A stretch of DNA of 64,000 bases from Streptomyces misionensis. GTDB lineage: Bacteria > Actinomycetota > Actinomycetes > Streptomycetales > Streptomycetaceae. The notes beneath the pieces were generated by a model. That model saw only the letters and a list, made by a program, of their open reading frames with translations, did no database searches and had not been told where the DNA came from. The position numbers and the translations under genes were made by a program. Within the stretch, counting starts at the first letter, position 1. The number at the start of each line of letters is the position of its first letter. The stretch spans positions 1,922,001 to 1,986,000 of the forward strand of contig NZ_FNTD01000004.1 in assembly GCF_900104815.1 (NCBI RefSeq), written 5' to 3'. Shown in pieces: positions 25,324 to 31,809 of the stretch.

Positions 25324-25341
25324 ACATACCGACCGGTCGGC
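25324..25341. promoter_or_regulatory. Candidate TetR operator upstream of the phosphotransferase
   Basis: ACATACCGACCGGTCGGC contains the perfect 12-bp palindrome CCGACCGGTCGG (25329-25340), 42 bp before the ATG. The 14-mer ACATACCGACCGGT recurs, inverted, upstream of the SDR operon at 31796-31809. That operon encodes a TetR protein, the likely ligand of both sites. Confidence 0.6.
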
Positions 25342-25382
25342 ATCATGAATCGCGTCCTGTACGCCCGTTCGTTGGAGTGAAT

Positions 25383-26405
25383 ATGAGCGCCGACCACCCG
25401 CCCGGACTCGACCTGGACCGGCTGCGCCTCCTGCTGGAGCGCGAGCGCCCCGGTCTGGTGCGGGGCCCCCTCGGCGGACGGCTGATCGAGGGTGGCCGGT
25501 CGAACCTCACGTACGCGCTCACCGACGGCACCTCGCGGTGGGTCGTCCGCCGGCCGCCGCTCGGCCATGTGCTGGCCACCGCGCACGACATGAAGCGCGA
25601 GCACCGCGTGATCAGCGCGCTGCACCCCACCTCCGTGCCGGTCCCCGCCCCGGTGCTGCTGTGCGAGGACGAGGAGGTGCTGGGCGCGCCGTTCTACGTG
25701 ATGGAGTTCGTGGAGGGCACCCCGTACCGCACCTCCGGGCAGCTGGCCGCGCTGGGCGAGGAGCGGGTGCGCAGCGCGGTGCTGTCCCTGGTGGACACGC
25801 TGGTCGAGCTGCACGCCGTGGACCCCGCCGGGGTGGGCCTCGGCGATTTCGGCCGGCCGGAGGGCTATCTGGACCGGCAGCTGCGCCGCTGGGGCAAGCA
25901 GCTGGACGCCTCCCGCAACCGCGACCTGCCCGGCATCGACGAGCTGCACGCCACCCTGGGCCGCCGGCTGCCCGCCTCCCCCGCGCCCGCCGTCGTGCAC
26001 GGCGACTACCGCCTGGACAACGTGCTGATCGGGGCCGACGACCGGATCACCGCGATCCTCGACTGGGAGATGTCCACCCTCGGCGATCCGCTGACCGACC
26101 TCGGTCTGCTGGTGATGTACAGCCGCAGCCTCGACGTGCCCGACTCGCCCGTGGCCACCACCGCAGAGGCGCCGGGGCACCCGGCCCCCGCGGAACTGAT
26201 CGAGCGGTACGCGGCCCGCTCCGGGCGGGACGTCTCGGCCGTCTCCTGGTACGAGGCGTTCGCCTTCTTCAAGCTCGCCGTGATCGTCGAGGGCATCCAC
26301 TACCGCTACACCCTCGGCCAGACGGTCGGCCGCGGTTTCGACCGCATGGGCGCTCTCGTGCCCGTCCTCATCGACCACGGACTGACCACTCTTCAGGAAG
26401 GCTGA
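25383..26405 (+). CDS. Aminoglycoside-phosphotransferase-fold acyl-CoA kinase (ACAD10/11 kinase / LvaA-like)
   Basis: 340 residues, GGAG before ATG. APH fold: HGDYRLDN at 206-213 (catalytic Asp208, Asn213) and LDWEMSTLGDP from 226 (metal Asp227). The DWE-STLGDP wording is typical of the kinase domain fused to ACAD10/ACAD11 in animals and of stand-alone LvaA in Pseudomonas, which phosphorylates the 4-hydroxyl of 4-hydroxyacyl-CoA. The next gene, 5 nt downstream, is the matching dehydrogenase. Antibiotic resistance is unlikely in this context. Confidence 0.85.
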   Translation: MSADHPPGLDLDRLRLLLERERPGLVRGPLGGRLIEGGRSNLTYALTDGTSRWVVRRPPLGHVLATAHDMKREHRVISALHPTSVPVPAPVLLCEDEEVLGAPFYVMEFVEGTPYRTSGQLAALGEERVRSAVLSLVDTLVELHAVDPAGVGLGDFGRPEGYLDRQLRRWGKQLDASRNRDLPGIDELHATLGRRLPASPAPAVVHGDYRLDNVLIGADDRITAILDWEMSTLGDPLTDLGLLVMYSRSLDVPDSPVATTAEAPGHPAPAELIERYAARSGRDVSAVSWYEAFAFFKLAVIVEGIHYRYTLGQTVGRGFDRMGALVPVLIDHGLTTLQEG

Positions 26406-26410
26406 CCGTC

Positions 26411-27628
26411 ATGGACTTCGCGTTCGACGCGCGCACCGAGGAATTGCGGGCCAGGCTGCTCGCGTTCATGGACGAGCACGTGTACCCGGCCGAGGCGGTC
26501 GCCGAGGAGCAGCGGGCCGCGCTCGACTCGCCCTGGAAGACCCCGCCGGTGGTCGAGGAGCTGAAGGCGGAGGCCCGGCGGCAGGGCCTGTGGAACCTGT
26601 TCCTGCCCGACGCCGAGTACGGCGCGGGGCTCACCAACCTCCAGTACGCGCCGCTCGCCGAGATCACCGGCCGCTCCCCGCAGCTGGCGCCCACCGTGAC
26701 GAACTGCGCCGCGCCCGACACCGGGAACATGGAGGTGCTGGCGCAGTTCGGCAACGAGCAGCAGAAGAAGCAGTGGCTGGAGCCGCTGCTGGCCGGTGAG
26801 ATCCGCTCGGCGTTCGCGATGACCGAGCCGGAGGTGGCCTCCTCGGACGCCACCAACATCACCACCCGGATCGAGCGGGACGGCGACGAGTACGTCATCA
26901 CCGGCCGCAAGTGGTACATCTCCGGGGCGATGAACCCGGACTGCCGGATCTTCATCGTGATGGGCAAGACCGACCCGGACGGCGCGGACATCCGCCGTCA
27001 GCAGTCCATGGTCCTGGTCCCGCGCGACACGCCCGGTGTGACCGTCCGGCGGGCCATGCGGGTGTTCGGCTACGAGGACCACTTCCACGGCGGCCACGCC
27101 GAGGTGGTCTTCGACCGGGTGCGGGTGCCGGTGACCAACCTGATCGGCGAGGAGGGCGGCGGCTTCGCCATCGCGCAGGCCCGGCTCGGCCCCGGCCGGA
27201 TCCACCACTGCATGCGGCTGATCGGCATGGCCGAGCGGGCCATCGAGCTGATGTGCCGCCGGGCGGTCTCCCGCACGGCGTTCGGCAAGCCGCTGGCCCG
27301 GCAGGGCGTGGTGCAGAACTGGATCGCCGACGCCCGGGTGACGGTCGAGCAGCTGCGGCTGCTGGTGCTGAAGACGGCCTGGCTGATGGACACCGTCGGC
27401 AACCGGGGCGCGCACACCGAGATCCAGGCCATCAAGATCGCCACGCCGCGCGCGGTGGTCGCCATCCTGGACCGCGCCATCCAGCTGCACGGCGCGGGCG
27501 GGGTGAGCCAGGACTTCCCGCTGGCCGAGATCTACGCCTCCGCCCGCACCCTGATGCTGGCCGACGGCCCCGACGAGGTCCACCAGCGGTCGCTGGCCCG
27601 GCGGGAACTGAAGAAGTACCTCCAGTAA
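26411..27628 (+). CDS. ACAD11/LvaC-type acyl-CoA dehydrogenase
   Basis: 405 residues. AMTEPEVASSDATNI, FGYEDHFHGGHAEV and ARLGPGRIHHCMRLIG are wordings of the ACAD10/11 branch. The usual catalytic Glu of YEG is replaced: the segment reads LADGPDEVH with Asp385. In this branch the enzyme acts on 4-phosphoacyl-CoA and removes phosphate to give an enoyl-CoA. Coupled to the kinase gene by a 5-nt gap. Confidence 0.87.
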   Translation: MDFAFDARTEELRARLLAFMDEHVYPAEAVAEEQRAALDSPWKTPPVVEELKAEARRQGLWNLFLPDAEYGAGLTNLQYAPLAEITGRSPQLAPTVTNCAAPDTGNMEVLAQFGNEQQKKQWLEPLLAGEIRSAFAMTEPEVASSDATNITTRIERDGDEYVITGRKWYISGAMNPDCRIFIVMGKTDPDGADIRRQQSMVLVPRDTPGVTVRRAMRVFGYEDHFHGGHAEVVFDRVRVPVTNLIGEEGGGFAIAQARLGPGRIHHCMRLIGMAERAIELMCRRAVSRTAFGKPLARQGVVQNWIADARVTVEQLRLLVLKTAWLMDTVGNRGAHTEIQAIKIATPRAVVAILDRAIQLHGAGGVSQDFPLAEIYASARTLMLADGPDEVHQRSLARRELKKYLQ

Positions 27629-27638
27629 CCGCCGAGAA

Positions 27639-27728
27639 CTAGTAGCCGCCGAAGTAGGTGTGGTCGGCGCGCAGCAGGGCGCCGAGGAAGGAGCGGAGGC
27701 GGGACAGGGACGAGGGTCTGCGTGTCAT
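27639..27728 (-). CDS. Candidate 29-residue small ORF
   Basis: ATG 27728 to TAG 27639-27641: begins MTRRPSSLSRLRSFLGALLR and ends ADHTYFGGY. 26 of 28 sense codons after the start end in G or C, like real genes here. It is amphipathic and basic with an aromatic tail, divergent from lysR and convergent with the dehydrogenase. Only a weak GGA precedes the start. Could be a regulatory peptide or chance. Confidence 0.4.
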   Translation of the reverse strand: MTRRPSSLSRLRSFLGALLRADHTYFGGY

Positions 27729-27767
27729 GCGTCCAGCGTGGCGCGCGGGCCGTCCACCGGTCCAACA

Positions 27768-27789
27768 GATGGATTCGCTGGGAGCCATC
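27768..27789. promoter_or_regulatory. LysR-type operator candidate
   Basis: GATGG-N12-CCATC inverted repeat in the gap between the small ORF and lysR, 33 bp before the lysR ATG. It has the spacing typical of T-N11-A LysR boxes. Confidence 0.35.
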
Positions 27790-27821
27790 GCTTTCATGAA
27801 CGGGTTCCCTACGATGGGCGG

Positions 27822-28742
27822 ATGGAGATCCGCCAGCTCAGGCACTTCATGGCCGTGGTGACCGAGGGCAGCTTCACCGCGGCCGCGCGCGCCGAGCTGA
27901 TCGTGCAGTCGGCGCTGAGCGTGTCGGTCCGCAACCTCGAACGCGAGCTGGGCGCCGACCTGTTCGACCGCACGGGCCGCAAGGTGGTGCTCACCGAGGC
28001 CGGGCGGGCCCTCGTGCCCAGGGCCCGGGCGCTGCTCGCCGGCGCCGCCGAGGCGCGGGACGCGGTCGCCGCGGTGGCGGGGCTGGCGGCCGGGCGGGTG
28101 GCCGTGGGCACGATCCAGACGCTCACCTGTGTCGATCTGCCCGCCGAACTCGCCGCGTTCCACCGGGAGTTCCCCGGCATCCAGGTCTCCGTGCGGGACG
28201 CCACCGTCCCCGAGCTGACCGAGGCGCTGCGCGCGGGTGAGCTGGATCTGGCGTATCTCGCGCCGGACGCCCGGGAGTTGCCCGAGGGGCTGCACGCGCA
28301 CGCCGCCTGGCAGGAGGAACTGGTGCTGGTCACCGCCCCCGGGCATCCGCTGGCCCGCGCGGGGCGGACACTCCTGCGGGACCTGACCGACGAGCCGTTC
28401 GTCGACTTCCGGGCGGGCACCGGCCTGGAGACGGCCGTGCGCCGGCTGGCCGCCCACTGCGGCCTGGACCGCCGCATCACCTGCGACGTCACCCAGATCG
28501 GGCTCTTGGTCGAGCTGGTCCGGGCCGGGATCGGGGTGGCGTTCGTGCCCCGCGCCATCGGGGAGCGGGCGGGGCTGCCGTGTGTGCGCATACGGCAGCC
28601 GGAGCCCGGCCGTACCGTCGTCCTGGCCGGGCGCGGGGCGACGCCGGGGAACCCGGCGGCCCGGGCCCTCGTCCGTCACCTCACGGGCGCAGCGCCCGCA
28701 GCAGCAGGTCCGCCAGGTGGTCGGCGACCTGCTGGGGGGTGA
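27822..28742 (+). CDS. LysR-family transcriptional regulator
   Basis: 306 residues from ATG 27822 (MEIRQLRHFMAVVTEGSFTA). Classical N-terminal HTH (AAARAELIVQSALSVSVRNL, LGADLFDRTGRKVVLTEAG) and periplasmic-binding-like effector domain. It sits between the two halves of the putative 4-hydroxy acid regulon but has no shared operator with them. Its last 20 codons (Pro/Gly/Ala-rich) overlap the convergent tetR gene by 62 bp. Confidence 0.88.
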   Translation: MEIRQLRHFMAVVTEGSFTAAARAELIVQSALSVSVRNLERELGADLFDRTGRKVVLTEAGRALVPRARALLAGAAEARDAVAAVAGLAAGRVAVGTIQTLTCVDLPAELAAFHREFPGIQVSVRDATVPELTEALRAGELDLAYLAPDARELPEGLHAHAAWQEELVLVTAPGHPLARAGRTLLRDLTDEPFVDFRAGTGLETAVRRLAAHCGLDRRITCDVTQIGLLVELVRAGIGVAFVPRAIGERAGLPCVRIRQPEPGRTVVLAGRGATPGNPAARALVRHLTGAAPAAAGPPGGRRPAGG

Positions 28743-29283
28743 GGGGACCGTCGGGGCGGTACCAGGTGGACAGGTGGTGGACCGAGCCGAAATGGTAGTC
28801 CACGACCAGGTCGGCCGGGGTCGCGGTGGAGAAGACGCCCGCCTGCTGGCCCTCCTCGATGAGCGCGCGGAAGCGTTCGTGGTAGCGCCGCCGCTCGGCC
28901 CGTACCTGCTTGTACTTCTCCGGGCTCAGCTGGTGCATGGAGCGGAAGAAGATCGAGGCGTCGTCCAGGTTCTCGATGGTGGACACCACGACGTCCGCCG
29001 CGGCCCCCCGCAGCCGCGTCTGAACGGGCGCGTCCATGCCGGCGAAGTGGTCGAGCCGCTCCTGCTGGACGCGCAGCATCCGCGCGTAGATCTCGTGCAG
29101 CAGGTCGTCCTTGGAGCCGAAGTAGTGGTACAGCGCCCCCTTGGTGACGCCGGCCGCCTCCACGATCTCCTGCACGGAGGTGCGGTCGTAGCCCTGCTCC
29201 GCGAAGAGCCGGGTGGCGGCGGCCAGGAGCCGCTGCGGAACAGGGGCTCCGTCGCCGTCCGTCGTCCTGGGCACTGCCGCCAC
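28681..29283 (-). CDS. TetR-family regulator of the putative 4-hydroxy acid operons
   Basis: 200 residues from GTG 29283 (GTG 29274 also possible). HTH: ATRLFAEQGYDRTSVQEIVE, AAGVTKGALYHYFGSKDDLL, the FadR/KstR2-like TetR type that binds acyl-CoAs. Third gene of the SDR-ligase-TetR operon (15 nt after the ligase), so autoregulation through the site near 31800 is likely. Overlaps lysR by 62 bp at the 3' end. Confidence 0.88.
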   Translation of the reverse strand: MAAVPRTTDGDGAPVPQRLLAAATRLFAEQGYDRTSVQEIVEAAGVTKGALYHYFGSKDDLLHEIYARMLRVQQERLDHFAGMDAPVQTRLRGAAADVVVSTIENLDDASIFFRSMHQLSPEKYKQVRAERRRYHERFRALIEEGQQAGVFSTATPADLVVDYHFGSVHHLSTWYRPDGPLTPQQVADHLADLLLRALRP

Positions 29284-29298
29284 CTGCCTTCCGTGATG

Positions 29299-30978
29299 TC
29301 ACTTGTTCCCGTGCTGTCCACCGCCGTCGCGGGAACGCAGTTCCCGACGGAGGATCTTCCCACTCGCCGTCTTGGGCAACTCGGGGAGGATCTCCACCTG
29401 GCGCGGATACTTGTAGGCCGCCAGTCTCTCCTTGCAGTACACGGCGAGTTCATCCGGGTCCGCCCCGGCCCCCGGACGGAGGCTGATGTACGCCTTGACG
29501 GTCTCCCCGCGGTAGCCGTCGGGCACGCCCACGACGGCCGCCTCGCGCACCGCCGGATGGGTGTAGAGGACGTCCTCGACCTCGCGCGGCCAGACCTTGA
29601 ACCCGGCCGCGTTGATCATGTCCTTCTTGCGGTCCACGACGTAGAGCCAGCCCTGCGGGTCCATGAACCCGATGTCGCCGGTGCGCAGCTCGCCGTCCGG
29701 GAAGGTCTCGGCGGTGGCGTCCGGCCGCCGCCAGTACCCGGGGATCACCTGGGGGCCGCGCACCGCGATCTCGCCCTGCTCGCCGAACGGCACCTCCGCG
29801 CCCCGGTCGTCCACGATCCGCACCACCGTGTCCGGGCCGGGCAGCCCGACCGCGAGGGTCCCGGAGACGGGGTCGACCGGCGCCTCGAGGGTGGTGGGCA
29901 CGGAGGCGCAGGGGGCGGTGCACTCGGTGAGGCCGTAGCCGTTGTGGATGTACGCCCCGAACCGCTCCCGGAACCGTTCGACCAGCGCGGGCGGCAGCGG
30001 GGCGCCGCCGGAGCCGAGGTGCGCGAAGGAGGAGAAGTGCTCCGGGGACGCGTCGGGGTGGGCGGCCAGGGCCATGTAGGCGGTGGAGGGGCCGACCGTG
30101 AAGTGCGGGCGGTGCTCGGCGAACGCCTCCAGGACGACGCCGGGATCGAACCGGTAGGCGAGCACGAGGGTGCCCGCGCTGCTCAAGCAGGCGCCCAGCT
30201 CGCAGACCATGCCGGTGATGTGGAACAGCGGCGCGAGCGCGAAGTAGACGGGTCCCGGCGGGAGCTGGAGCCCGGTGCGCTGCCGTTCCGCGTTGTACAT
30301 GATGTTGCGGTGGGTGTTGGTGGCGCCCTTGGGGGTGCCGCTGGTGCCGGAGGTGTAGCTGATCAGCGCGATGTCGTCGGGTGCCGGGTCCCGGCCCTCG
30401 GGCGCCGGTCCGCCCCGCCGGGCCACGGCCGTCAGGTCCTCGGCGTCGGGGGCCTGCGGCAGCCGCTCGAAGGACAGCACCCGGGCGTCGTCGTGCGTCT
30501 GGAAGTCCCGCTCGCACGCGGTGAGCACGATCCGCACCGGCGAGTCGGCGGCCGTCTGCCTGAGGTACGACTCCCACGCCCGCTGCGAGCAGACCAGCGC
30601 GGCCACCTCGGCGTCCCGCAGCACATGGGAGACCTCGGCCGACTTGTACATCGGGTTGACCGGCACCACGACGGCGCCCGCCTTCCAGGCGCCGAGCAGG
30701 GCCAGCACGAAGTGCGGGGAGTTCTGGAGCAGTACGGCCACCCGGTCGCCGCGCTCCAGTCCGCGCGCGGCGAGGCCGGCGGCGACGGAGTCGGTGAGCC
30801 GGTCCACCTCGCGATAGCTCAGCCGGCCGTCGAAGTAGCTCAGGAAGGTGCGCTCGGGCGCCTCGGCGACCGCGGCGCGCAGGGCGTGCACCAGCGAGTC
30901 GGCGGGGTCGACGGGGGCGCGCTGGGCCTCGTCGAGCAGGGCCAGCCAGGGCTTGGACGCGTAGCGGGACTCGCTCAC
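29299..30978 (-). CDS. Acyl-CoA synthetase (LvaE-like AMP-binding enzyme)
   Basis: 559 residues, GTG start. ATP/AMP motif YTSGTSGTPKGA, GYGLTE, GELRTGDIGF, LYVVDRKKDMI, and the C-terminal catalytic Lys in PKTASGKILRREL. Soluble, medium/long-chain acyl-CoA ligase type. The start overlaps the SDR stop by 4 nt. In the proposed pathway it activates the hydroxy or keto acid to its CoA thioester. Confidence 0.88.
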   Translation of the reverse strand: MSESRYASKPWLALLDEAQRAPVDPADSLVHALRAAVAEAPERTFLSYFDGRLSYREVDRLTDSVAAGLAARGLERGDRVAVLLQNSPHFVLALLGAWKAGAVVVPVNPMYKSAEVSHVLRDAEVAALVCSQRAWESYLRQTAADSPVRIVLTACERDFQTHDDARVLSFERLPQAPDAEDLTAVARRGGPAPEGRDPAPDDIALISYTSGTSGTPKGATNTHRNIMYNAERQRTGLQLPPGPVYFALAPLFHITGMVCELGACLSSAGTLVLAYRFDPGVVLEAFAEHRPHFTVGPSTAYMALAAHPDASPEHFSSFAHLGSGGAPLPPALVERFRERFGAYIHNGYGLTECTAPCASVPTTLEAPVDPVSGTLAVGLPGPDTVVRIVDDRGAEVPFGEQGEIAVRGPQVIPGYWRRPDATAETFPDGELRTGDIGFMDPQGWLYVVDRKKDMINAAGFKVWPREVEDVLYTHPAVREAAVVGVPDGYRGETVKAYISLRPGAGADPDELAVYCKERLAAYKYPRQVEILPELPKTASGKILRRELRSRDGGGQHGNK

Positions 30979-31748
30979 GACACCTCCTCCACCTTCTGCT
31001 GGATCTGGTTCATGCCGGCCAGCCAGCGCTCGGGATCCGCGCCGCGCCCCCGGTAGCGTTCGGCGGTCTGCGCGTGCGGCAGGATCAGGAAGCGGTCCTC
31101 CTCGATGCCCTGGAACAGCGCGTCCGCCACGTCCTCCGGCTCGATCGCGGTGGGCGCCAGCATCACCTCGCCGGCGCTGCCGCTGGCCGCGAGCATGTCG
31201 GTGCGCACGCCCTCCGGGCAGATCGCGTGCACCTTCAGACCGCGGTGGCGGTACGTCAGGGACAGCCACTCGGCGAAGGCGTAGGCGCCGTGCTTCGTGA
31301 CGCTGTAGGAGGGGGCGCCGACCATGCTGAGCAGCCCGGCGGCGGACACCGTCGCGACGAACCGGCCGCTGCCGCGCTCCAGCCAGTGCGGCAGCAGCGC
31401 GTGGGCCGCGCGGACGTGCGCCATCACGTTGACGTCCCAGGTCAGTGCCCATGCCTTCTCGTCCAGCGACGCGTGGATGTCACCGTCCGCGAAGGCGACC
31501 CCGGCGTTGGCGCAGTAGACGTCCACGGTCCCGCCGAGCGCGTCCCGCGCCTGCTCGACGACGGCGGAGGCGTCCCCGGGCACGGCGGTGGCGCCGATCT
31601 CCCCGGCCACCGCCGCCGCCTTGGCCGCGTCCAGGTCGTTCACCACGACCCGTGCCCCCGCCGCGGCGAACCGCCTGGCGAGGGCGGCCCCGATGCCCCC
31701 GCCCGCCCCGGTGACGACCACTCCCGCATCCTGCATGGCATGCACCAT
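30975..31748 (-). CDS. Short-chain dehydrogenase/reductase (LvaD-like)
   Basis: 257 residues from ATG 31748 with GAGGAG upstream (a GTG at 31760 overlaps that site and is less likely). NAD(P) motif TGAGGGIG, CANAGV, and catalytic Ser/YSVTK. Cytosolic. First gene of the operon after the shared TetR operator; in the proposed pathway it interconverts 4-keto- and 4-hydroxyacyl-CoA. Confidence 0.87.
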   Translation of the reverse strand: MVHAMQDAGVVVTGAGGGIGAALARRFAAAGARVVVNDLDAAKAAAVAGEIGATAVPGDASAVVEQARDALGGTVDVYCANAGVAFADGDIHASLDEKAWALTWDVNVMAHVRAAHALLPHWLERGSGRFVATVSAAGLLSMVGAPSYSVTKHGAYAFAEWLSLTYRHRGLKVHAICPEGVRTDMLAASGSAGEVMLAPTAIEPEDVADALFQGIEEDRFLILPHAQTAERYRGRGADPERWLAGMNQIQQKVEEVS

Positions 31749-31789
31749 CGGTCTCCTCACGACACGACGCGACTCGGCTCAGCGCGGCC

Positions 31790-31809
31790 AGACTAACCGG
31801 TCGGTATGT
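31790..31809. promoter_or_regulatory. Candidate TetR operator upstream of the SDR operon
   Basis: AACCGGTCGGTATGT (31795-31809). The half-site CGGTCGGTAT is intact and the other half (AGACTAAC) is degenerate relative to ATACCGACCGGTCGGTAT. It is the inverted counterpart of the site at 25324 and lies about 45 bp before the SDR start. Confidence 0.55.

Follow-up and report, generated by a model that had tools for sequence, protein, structure and literature searches.

A Predicted TetR-Repressed Gene Module for the Catabolism of Acids Oxygenated at Carbon 4 in Streptomyces misionensis

We analyzed a window of 64,000 nt from the 8.47-Mb genome of Streptomyces misionensis (G000:C4:1922001-1986000). 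Two transcription units lie within its positions 25326-31807, one on the plus strand encoding a kinase and an acyl-CoA dehydrogenase (ACAD), and one on the minus strand encoding a short-chain dehydrogenase/reductase (SDR), an acyl-coenzyme A (CoA) ligase, and a TetR-family regulator. A copy of CATACCGACCGGT precedes each unit. We consider it probable that this locus is a catabolic module repressed by the TetR and directed at acids with an oxygen function on carbon 4, which would enter beta-oxidation through phosphorylation and elimination at the level of the 4-hydroxyacyl-CoA. ACAD10, ACAD11, and bacterial orthologs are described as converting 4-hydroxyacyl-CoA to 4-phosphoacyl-CoA and then to enoyl-CoA (PMC11342911, PMC12440821). 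The corresponding activities predicted for the kinase and ACAD of the window, phosphorylation of a 4-hydroxyacyl-CoA and elimination of the phosphate, are well supported by homology.

Comparison with solved structures placed the window kinase closest to entry 9o56 (247.5 bits), followed by ACAD11 (175-179 bits) and 3dxp (178 bits), with the other listed kinases at 51 bits or below. Scores were far lower against a macrolide kinase (21.5 bits), the APH(3') profile (35.5 bits, with a cut-off of 205), and the seven APH paralogs with the best Pfam scores in the same genome (at most 37 bits); an aminoglycoside-kinase reading of this APH-fold gene was rejected on these scores. They support the assignment of the predicted protein to the LvaA/ACAD10-11 kinase type, as the initial annotation had proposed, and set it apart from aminoglycoside and macrolide kinases. 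The equivalents of ACAD11 residues R86, R176, D220, and N225 (positions from PMC12440821) are R72, R165, D208, and N213, which, together with E73 and D227, are unchanged in 81 of 81 aligned rows of relatives. None of the seven paralogs carries the full six-residue set. The closest named kinases are Streptomyces proteins with 92-93% identity.

The window ACAD shows a similar pattern, scoring 462-468 bits against ACAD11 structures and 460 bits against 4hr3, compared with at most 149 bits for other ACADs; the runner-up ACAD in the same genome reached 159 versus 913 bits. Asp385, within the motif DGPDEVH, aligns with D753 of mouse ACAD11. Entry 8v3v has Asn at that position, and the inactive ACAD11 mutant is an Asp-to-Asn substitution (PMC12440821). 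The catalytic D753 and residues R626, H634, and R637 form a set that ACAD11 is described as sharing with LvaC (PMC12440821). Their equivalents in the window ACAD are D385, R258, H266, and R269; both the catalytic Asp in place of Glu and the phosphate-facing Arg-His-Arg helix are present. Among alignment rows gathered by similarity from fetched loci, all 128 close rows (the window among them) carry the complete set, as do 9 of 10 more distant rows (the tenth is gapped). None of the 13 ordinary ACAD rows has it; in 8 of these rows the catalytic column holds Glu. These results support a predicted ACAD11/LvaC-type enzyme and uphold the earlier reading of Asp385 as standing where ordinary ACADs carry Glu.

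One alternative would make the kinase an antibiotic-type phosphotransferase, the ACAD an ordinary fatty-acid dehydrogenase, and the shared operator a generic fatty-acid signal. Both proteins do carry generic family names in databases, and operators of this type are reported in lipid and phenylacetate regulons (PMC7022988, PMC2770484). The low scores of the kinase against the macrolide kinase, the APH(3') profile, and its own paralogs, along with an Arg-His-Arg and Asp set that no ordinary ACAD row completes, make this explanation highly improbable.

We then considered the regulation of the module. Only two sites in the genome match CATACCGACCGGTNNG exactly, operators 1 and 2 (Table 1), which lie 6.5 kb apart. 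Allowing up to two mismatches gave 104 genomic matches versus 54 for a reversed control pattern, so these looser sites mean little. Within the window, three matches were found at up to three mismatches, compared with 0.56 expected, the third being the opposite-strand reading of operator 1; because 2 of 100 shuffles also reached three, this count is modest evidence alone. The genome-wide uniqueness of the exact pair and its conservation in relatives are stronger evidence that these sites are operators.

A TetR match at E <= 1e-40 was found in 101 of 150 genomes, the source genome among them; within the genus, 88 of the 90 other genomes have one. We fetched long loci for 27 of these 88 and for 10 of 12 loci from other genera, picked before viewing for contig span and spread of identity; the operator count left out 29 short relative loci (L010-L038). 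The kinase and ACAD were detected in 26 of the 27 same-genus loci, the SDR in 26, and the ligase in 21, with the kinase and ACAD absent from the fetched stretch of L058 and the SDR absent from L048. Operator 1 lies within 300 bp ahead of the kinase in all 26 same-genus loci with a kinase (20 of them matching CATACCGACYGGT exactly, the other 6 differing from it at one position). Operator 2 lies within 300 bp ahead of the SDR in all 26 with an SDR, always as CATACCGACYGGTTAGTCTG. The distance between the two units varies among these relatives, and both sites are retained.

The nearest solved structure to the TetR is 3vpr (90 bits), which we take to be Thermus PfmR. TetR proteins of the PfmR/PaaR type respond to acyl- or aryl-CoA compounds. 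TTHB023, to which the name PfmR is tied in the acknowledgment of the paper describing it, binds the promoter sites CCTACCGACCGGTCGG and TTTACCGACCGGTTGG with KD values of 0.32 and 0.98 nM, respectively (PMC7022988). Operator 1 reads CATACCGACCGGTCGG, one base off CCTACCGACCGGTCGG, the tightest of the tabulated promoter sites (PMC7022988). In Burkholderia cenocepacia, the motif ACCGACCGGTCGGT, located between a putative -35 and -10, is reported to be required for negative control of a phenylacetate promoter by the TetR-type PaaR (PMC2770484). A TACCGACCGGT-type pseudo-palindrome, as used by these two regulators, is present upstream of both predicted target units, so the candidate operators fit the TetR class and are likely bound by the window TetR. 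The likeness to Thermus thermophilus TTHB023 and to PaaR lies in the operator; their targets differ, being lipid genes and phenylacetate degradation (PMC7022988, PMC2770484). The initial annotation had pointed out an operator-like sequence common to both operons and placed a single TetR over them. The shared sequence is borne out by the two sites, and their conservation and PfmR/PaaR-type motif make control of both operons by one TetR very probable.

There are four one-mismatch operator sites elsewhere in the genome. Listing the open reading frames (ORFs) near two of these and near one two-mismatch site gave nothing clear as a wider regulon. The sequence CGTACCGACCGGTTGG at G000:C4:5784639-5784654 is one base off the tabulated PfmR site CTTACCGACCGGTTGG (PMC7022988), and the frames listed near it gave no clear assignment.

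Together, these features suggest a scheme for the module. When substrate is absent, TetR would occupy both operators and keep both operons off, and an acyl-CoA intermediate would release it. The ligase, or another ligase where it is missing, would form the CoA ester, and the SDR would interconvert 4-oxoacyl-CoA and 4-hydroxyacyl-CoA, probably supplying the latter from the former. Judging from their sequences, the kinase would phosphorylate the 4-hydroxyl of the CoA ester. The ACAD, with flavin adenine dinucleotide, Asp385, and the Arg-His-Arg phosphate pocket, would expel the phosphate to give a 2-enoyl-CoA that enters beta-oxidation. Rather than levulinate alone, a class of acids that bear a 4-hydroxy or 4-oxo group (or derive from gamma-lactones) is the more likely substrate. 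Because the TetR is kept in almost the whole genus sample, the kinase, ACAD, SDR, and operators occur in nearly all examined loci, and the ligase is dispensable, one could also imagine an endogenous housekeeping role. The regulon would then dispose of 4-hydroxy acids formed in Streptomyces itself, for example from oxidized lipids or when its own gamma-butyrolactone signals are turned over, rather than serve opportunistic growth on levulinate. We regard this as very doubtful; if true, it would make the TetR a sensor of 4-hydroxy-acid intermediates.

Known systems from mammals and Pseudomonas provide the closest comparisons. In mammalian ACAD10 and ACAD11, the kinase is fused to the ACAD, and both ACAD11 domains match the window proteins over nearly their full length, with equivalents of the catalytic and phosphate-pocket residues and of the four kinase residues named above. 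The window differs in having two separate genes 5 bp apart, TetR regulation, and an additional SDR and ligase. In Pseudomonas putida KT2440, a single regulon, lvaRABCDEFG, likewise unites a kinase, an ACAD, an SDR, and an acyl-CoA ligase, a likeness of enzyme class (PMC6692424, PMC12440821, PMC11342911). Unlike this operon, the window locus consists of two operons under a TetR, and no LvaB, sigma-54 LvaR, or transporter is apparent there. In agreement with the initial annotation, which had seen no LvaB-like helper, no intergenic gap at the locus (the rest of the genome aside) is long enough for the gene of this 12-kDa protein. The six locus genes and the seven ORFs flanking them (two of these ORFs lack a Pfam match) yielded no sigma-54 regulator or transporter family; the regulators at the locus are the TetR and a LysR-family protein. 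The levulinate cluster of Pseudomonas citronellolis LA18T also contains a kinase, ACAD, SDR, and ligase, the last reported as only 35% identical to LvaE, and LvaB is reported as not found there (PMC6692424). Unlike the window, that cluster is described with an LvaR-like regulator, an acetate-symporter-type transporter, and a histidine phosphatase (PMC6692424).

These comparisons bear on whether the locus is a dedicated levulinate pathway equal to Pseudomonas lvaABCDE, in which the ligase would be a true counterpart of LvaE and the SDR of LvaD. The same four enzyme classes do occur in one regulon, and loss of the ligase could be tolerated in such a pathway, as a P. putida lvaE deletion strain is reported to still grow on levulinate (PMC6692424). 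However, there is no room for LvaB between the locus genes, no transporter or sigma-54 regulator family among the genes and flanking ORFs covered, and the likeness of the SDR and ligase to LvaD and LvaE is at the superfamily level. The ligase resembles generic long-chain enzymes, its best NCBIfam match being a long-chain acyl-CoA ligase subfamily at 442 bits, below the cut-off of 705. Related loci from other genera hold a further ACAD and a thioesterase, a gene content suggestive of longer acyl chains. We consider a dedicated levulinate pathway unlikely and favor a module for a broader class of acids oxygenated at carbon 4.

The association of the SDR with the kinase and ACAD was examined on plasmids, among which 48 records contain an SDR homolog at E <= 1e-30. 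Ten neighborhoods, picked for variety and not at random, were opened; nine are annotated, and L303 and L304 are near copies. A phosphotransferase lies within 5 kb of the SDR in four of the nine (Tsukamurella, Deinococcus QL22, R. opacus DSM 44186, and Deinococcus NW-56), and the same four hold an ACAD11-type ACAD with 58-72% identity.

Gene content in Deinococcus is a separate observation. The NW-56 cluster includes an SMP-30/gluconolactonase-family gene and a histidine phosphatase, the latter also reported in the P. citronellolis levulinate cluster (PMC6692424). On the Deinococcus plasmids L306 and L302, the ACAD, SDR, and kinase are followed by a histidine phosphatase and accompanied by MaoC and a PaaI-type thioesterase, with a lactonase-family gene in L306. 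The gene content of these plasmids hints that gamma-lactones may feed the 4-hydroxyacyl-CoA route.

Several observations weigh against the proposed module. Both CoA-contact Arg positions of the kinase align with Arg in three of the seven paralogs, and for this reason the kinase residues tell little that the scores do not. Assignment of the SDR and ligase is at the level of the adh_short and AMP-binding superfamilies, on which their LvaD and LvaE likeness rests. The ligase was undetected in 6 of 27 same-genus loci, lies in several pieces in L045 and L069, and is partly shown in L048. Its absence need not break the pathway, given the growth of the P. putida lvaE mutant on levulinate (PMC6692424). 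Operator 2 is an imperfect palindrome, and the operator motif class also serves regulators of other pathways, such as the lipid and phenylacetate regulons cited above. In L060, from another genus, no good site lies directly ahead of the SDR or kinase. Of 29 loci fetched from a sample of the phylum, only 7 place the kinase within ~1.5 kb of the ACAD (three of them in the genus of the window). Finally, no phosphotransferase was found within 5 kb of the plasmid SDR in five of the nine annotated neighborhoods. One of these five, in Sulfitobacter SC1-11, has an ACAD (51%) near the SDR and a kinase match ~12 kb away. In the unannotated C. metallidurans neighborhood, tblastn found neither kinase nor ACAD.

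SDR families are promiscuous. This, together with the SDR homologs that lack a kinase within 5 kb, could mean that the kinase and ACAD act on 4-hydroxyacyl-CoA while the SDR, and perhaps the ligase, acts at another position or on another substrate class, such as a specific natural product or terpenoid acid skeleton. The shared operator, invariant ahead of the SDR in 26 of 26 loci, and the proximity of the SDR to an ACAD and kinase in Deinococcus, Rhodococcus, and the genus of the window argue against such a division, which we judge quite unlikely.

Beyond Streptomyces, the kinase, ACAD, and TetR are kept in L059, L061, and L062, with an operator-like site (one or two mismatches) ahead of the kinase. 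L061 has an extra ACAD and an acyl-CoA thioesterase, and L062 has another ACAD and a different ligase (29% identity) in place. The L060 genes SDR, kinase, and ACAD are in tandem on one strand, and operator-like sites precede the TetR and an additional SDR that heads that run. Across the phylum, 56 of 149 sampled genomes carry an ACAD11-type gene at E <= 1e-100. Within the genus to which P. brassicacearum belongs, 386 of 398 genomes have the ACAD and 117 of 119 have a kinase. No kinase adjoins the main ACAD copies in the loci viewed from this genus, and second, weaker kinase copies adjoin an ACAD in 10 of 10. Thus, the tight regulated cluster is best seen in the genus of the window, with scattered parallels elsewhere. 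No lvaABCDE cluster was recognized in the fetched loci viewed from genus searches that yielded many ACAD11-type genes; L224, considered as a candidate for its 108-aa frame overlapping the ACAD start, was rejected, as no kinase is present there.

Additional observations concern these relatives. Kinase-linked ACADs from Pseudomonas (L217 and L255-L263) form a second sub-branch, 36-44% identical to the window ACAD. Its nine distinct aligned rows have DGPTEVH for DGPDEVH and retain the Arg-His-Arg and Asp set, and this sub-branch possibly has a different substrate. Loci L063-L068, from another genus of the order, carry a TetR of 41-44% identity beside a divergent ligase (37-39%) with no kinase, ACAD, or operator, and we treated these TetRs as paralog regulators. 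Streptomyces cathayae plasmid NZ_CP121683.1 (L083) carries the kinase, ACAD, TetR (in two pieces), SDR, and both operators, with operator 2 slightly altered past its core and no ligase match. This copy is flanked by IS3-family genes, and the module can therefore move.

The enzyme chemistry is already known from ACAD10/11 and Pseudomonas, and the locus is ordinary in enzyme type. The TetR regulon looks undescribed in the literature searched: queries combining ACAD11 with Streptomyces and LvaA with Actinobacteria returned no Streptomyces description, in a body of text that mostly excludes subscription papers and preprints. As a compact and widely conserved bacterial example of the 4-hydroxyacyl-CoA phosphorylation route, the locus should be easy to test, and it suggests a function for two genes usually named merely phosphotransferase and acyl-CoA dehydrogenase. 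Its likely matching sensor, a TetR with a defined operator, could help to identify the natural substrate and be used as a biosensor.

Gene starts (Table 1) were chosen to suit ribosome-binding sites and to match the nearest kinases, which are 340 aa long; the mechanically called ORFs begin further upstream. For the kinase, ACAD, TetR, ligase, and SDR genes, coordinates agree with those given initially.

Table 1. Predicted features of the locus, in window coordinates
Feature	Coordinates	Strand	Basis and remarks
Operator 1 (predicted)	25326..25343	+	18-bp near-perfect palindrome ATACCGACC/GGTCGGCAT, 39 bp ahead of kinase start
APH-fold kinase, predicted 4-hydroxyacyl-CoA kinase (LvaA/ACAD10-11 kinase type)	25383..26405	+	Pfam APH, 198 bits
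ACAD11-type ACAD, predicted 4-phosphoacyl-CoA phosphate-eliminating enzyme (LvaC type)	26411..27628	+	Pfam acyl-CoA dehydrogenase domains
LysR-family gene, between the two operons	27822..28742		LysR family
TetR-family repressor	28681..29283	-	Pfam TetR_N and TetR_C_24
AMP-forming acyl-CoA ligase, accessory	29299..30978	-	Pfam AMP-binding, 317 bits
SDR oxidoreductase, predicted 4-oxoacyl-CoA/4-hydroxyacyl-CoA dehydrogenase	30975..31748	-	Pfam adh_short, 123 bits; first gene of SDR-ligase-TetR operon
Operator 2 (predicted)	31790..31807	-	ATACCGACCGGTTAGTCT, 41 bp ahead of SDR start

The ligase start and SDR stop overlap by 4 bases. A promoter and terminator consensus scan gave no match, such a scan being uninformative for Streptomyces. 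The LysR gene, unmentioned in the initial annotation, overlaps the 3' end of the TetR gene tail to tail by 62 bp. None of the 37 relative loci gave a tblastn match to it at E <= 1e-15, and for this reason it looks like a strain-level insertion. To the left of the locus lies a NUDIX gene, and to the right a gene for a NamZ-type muramidase.

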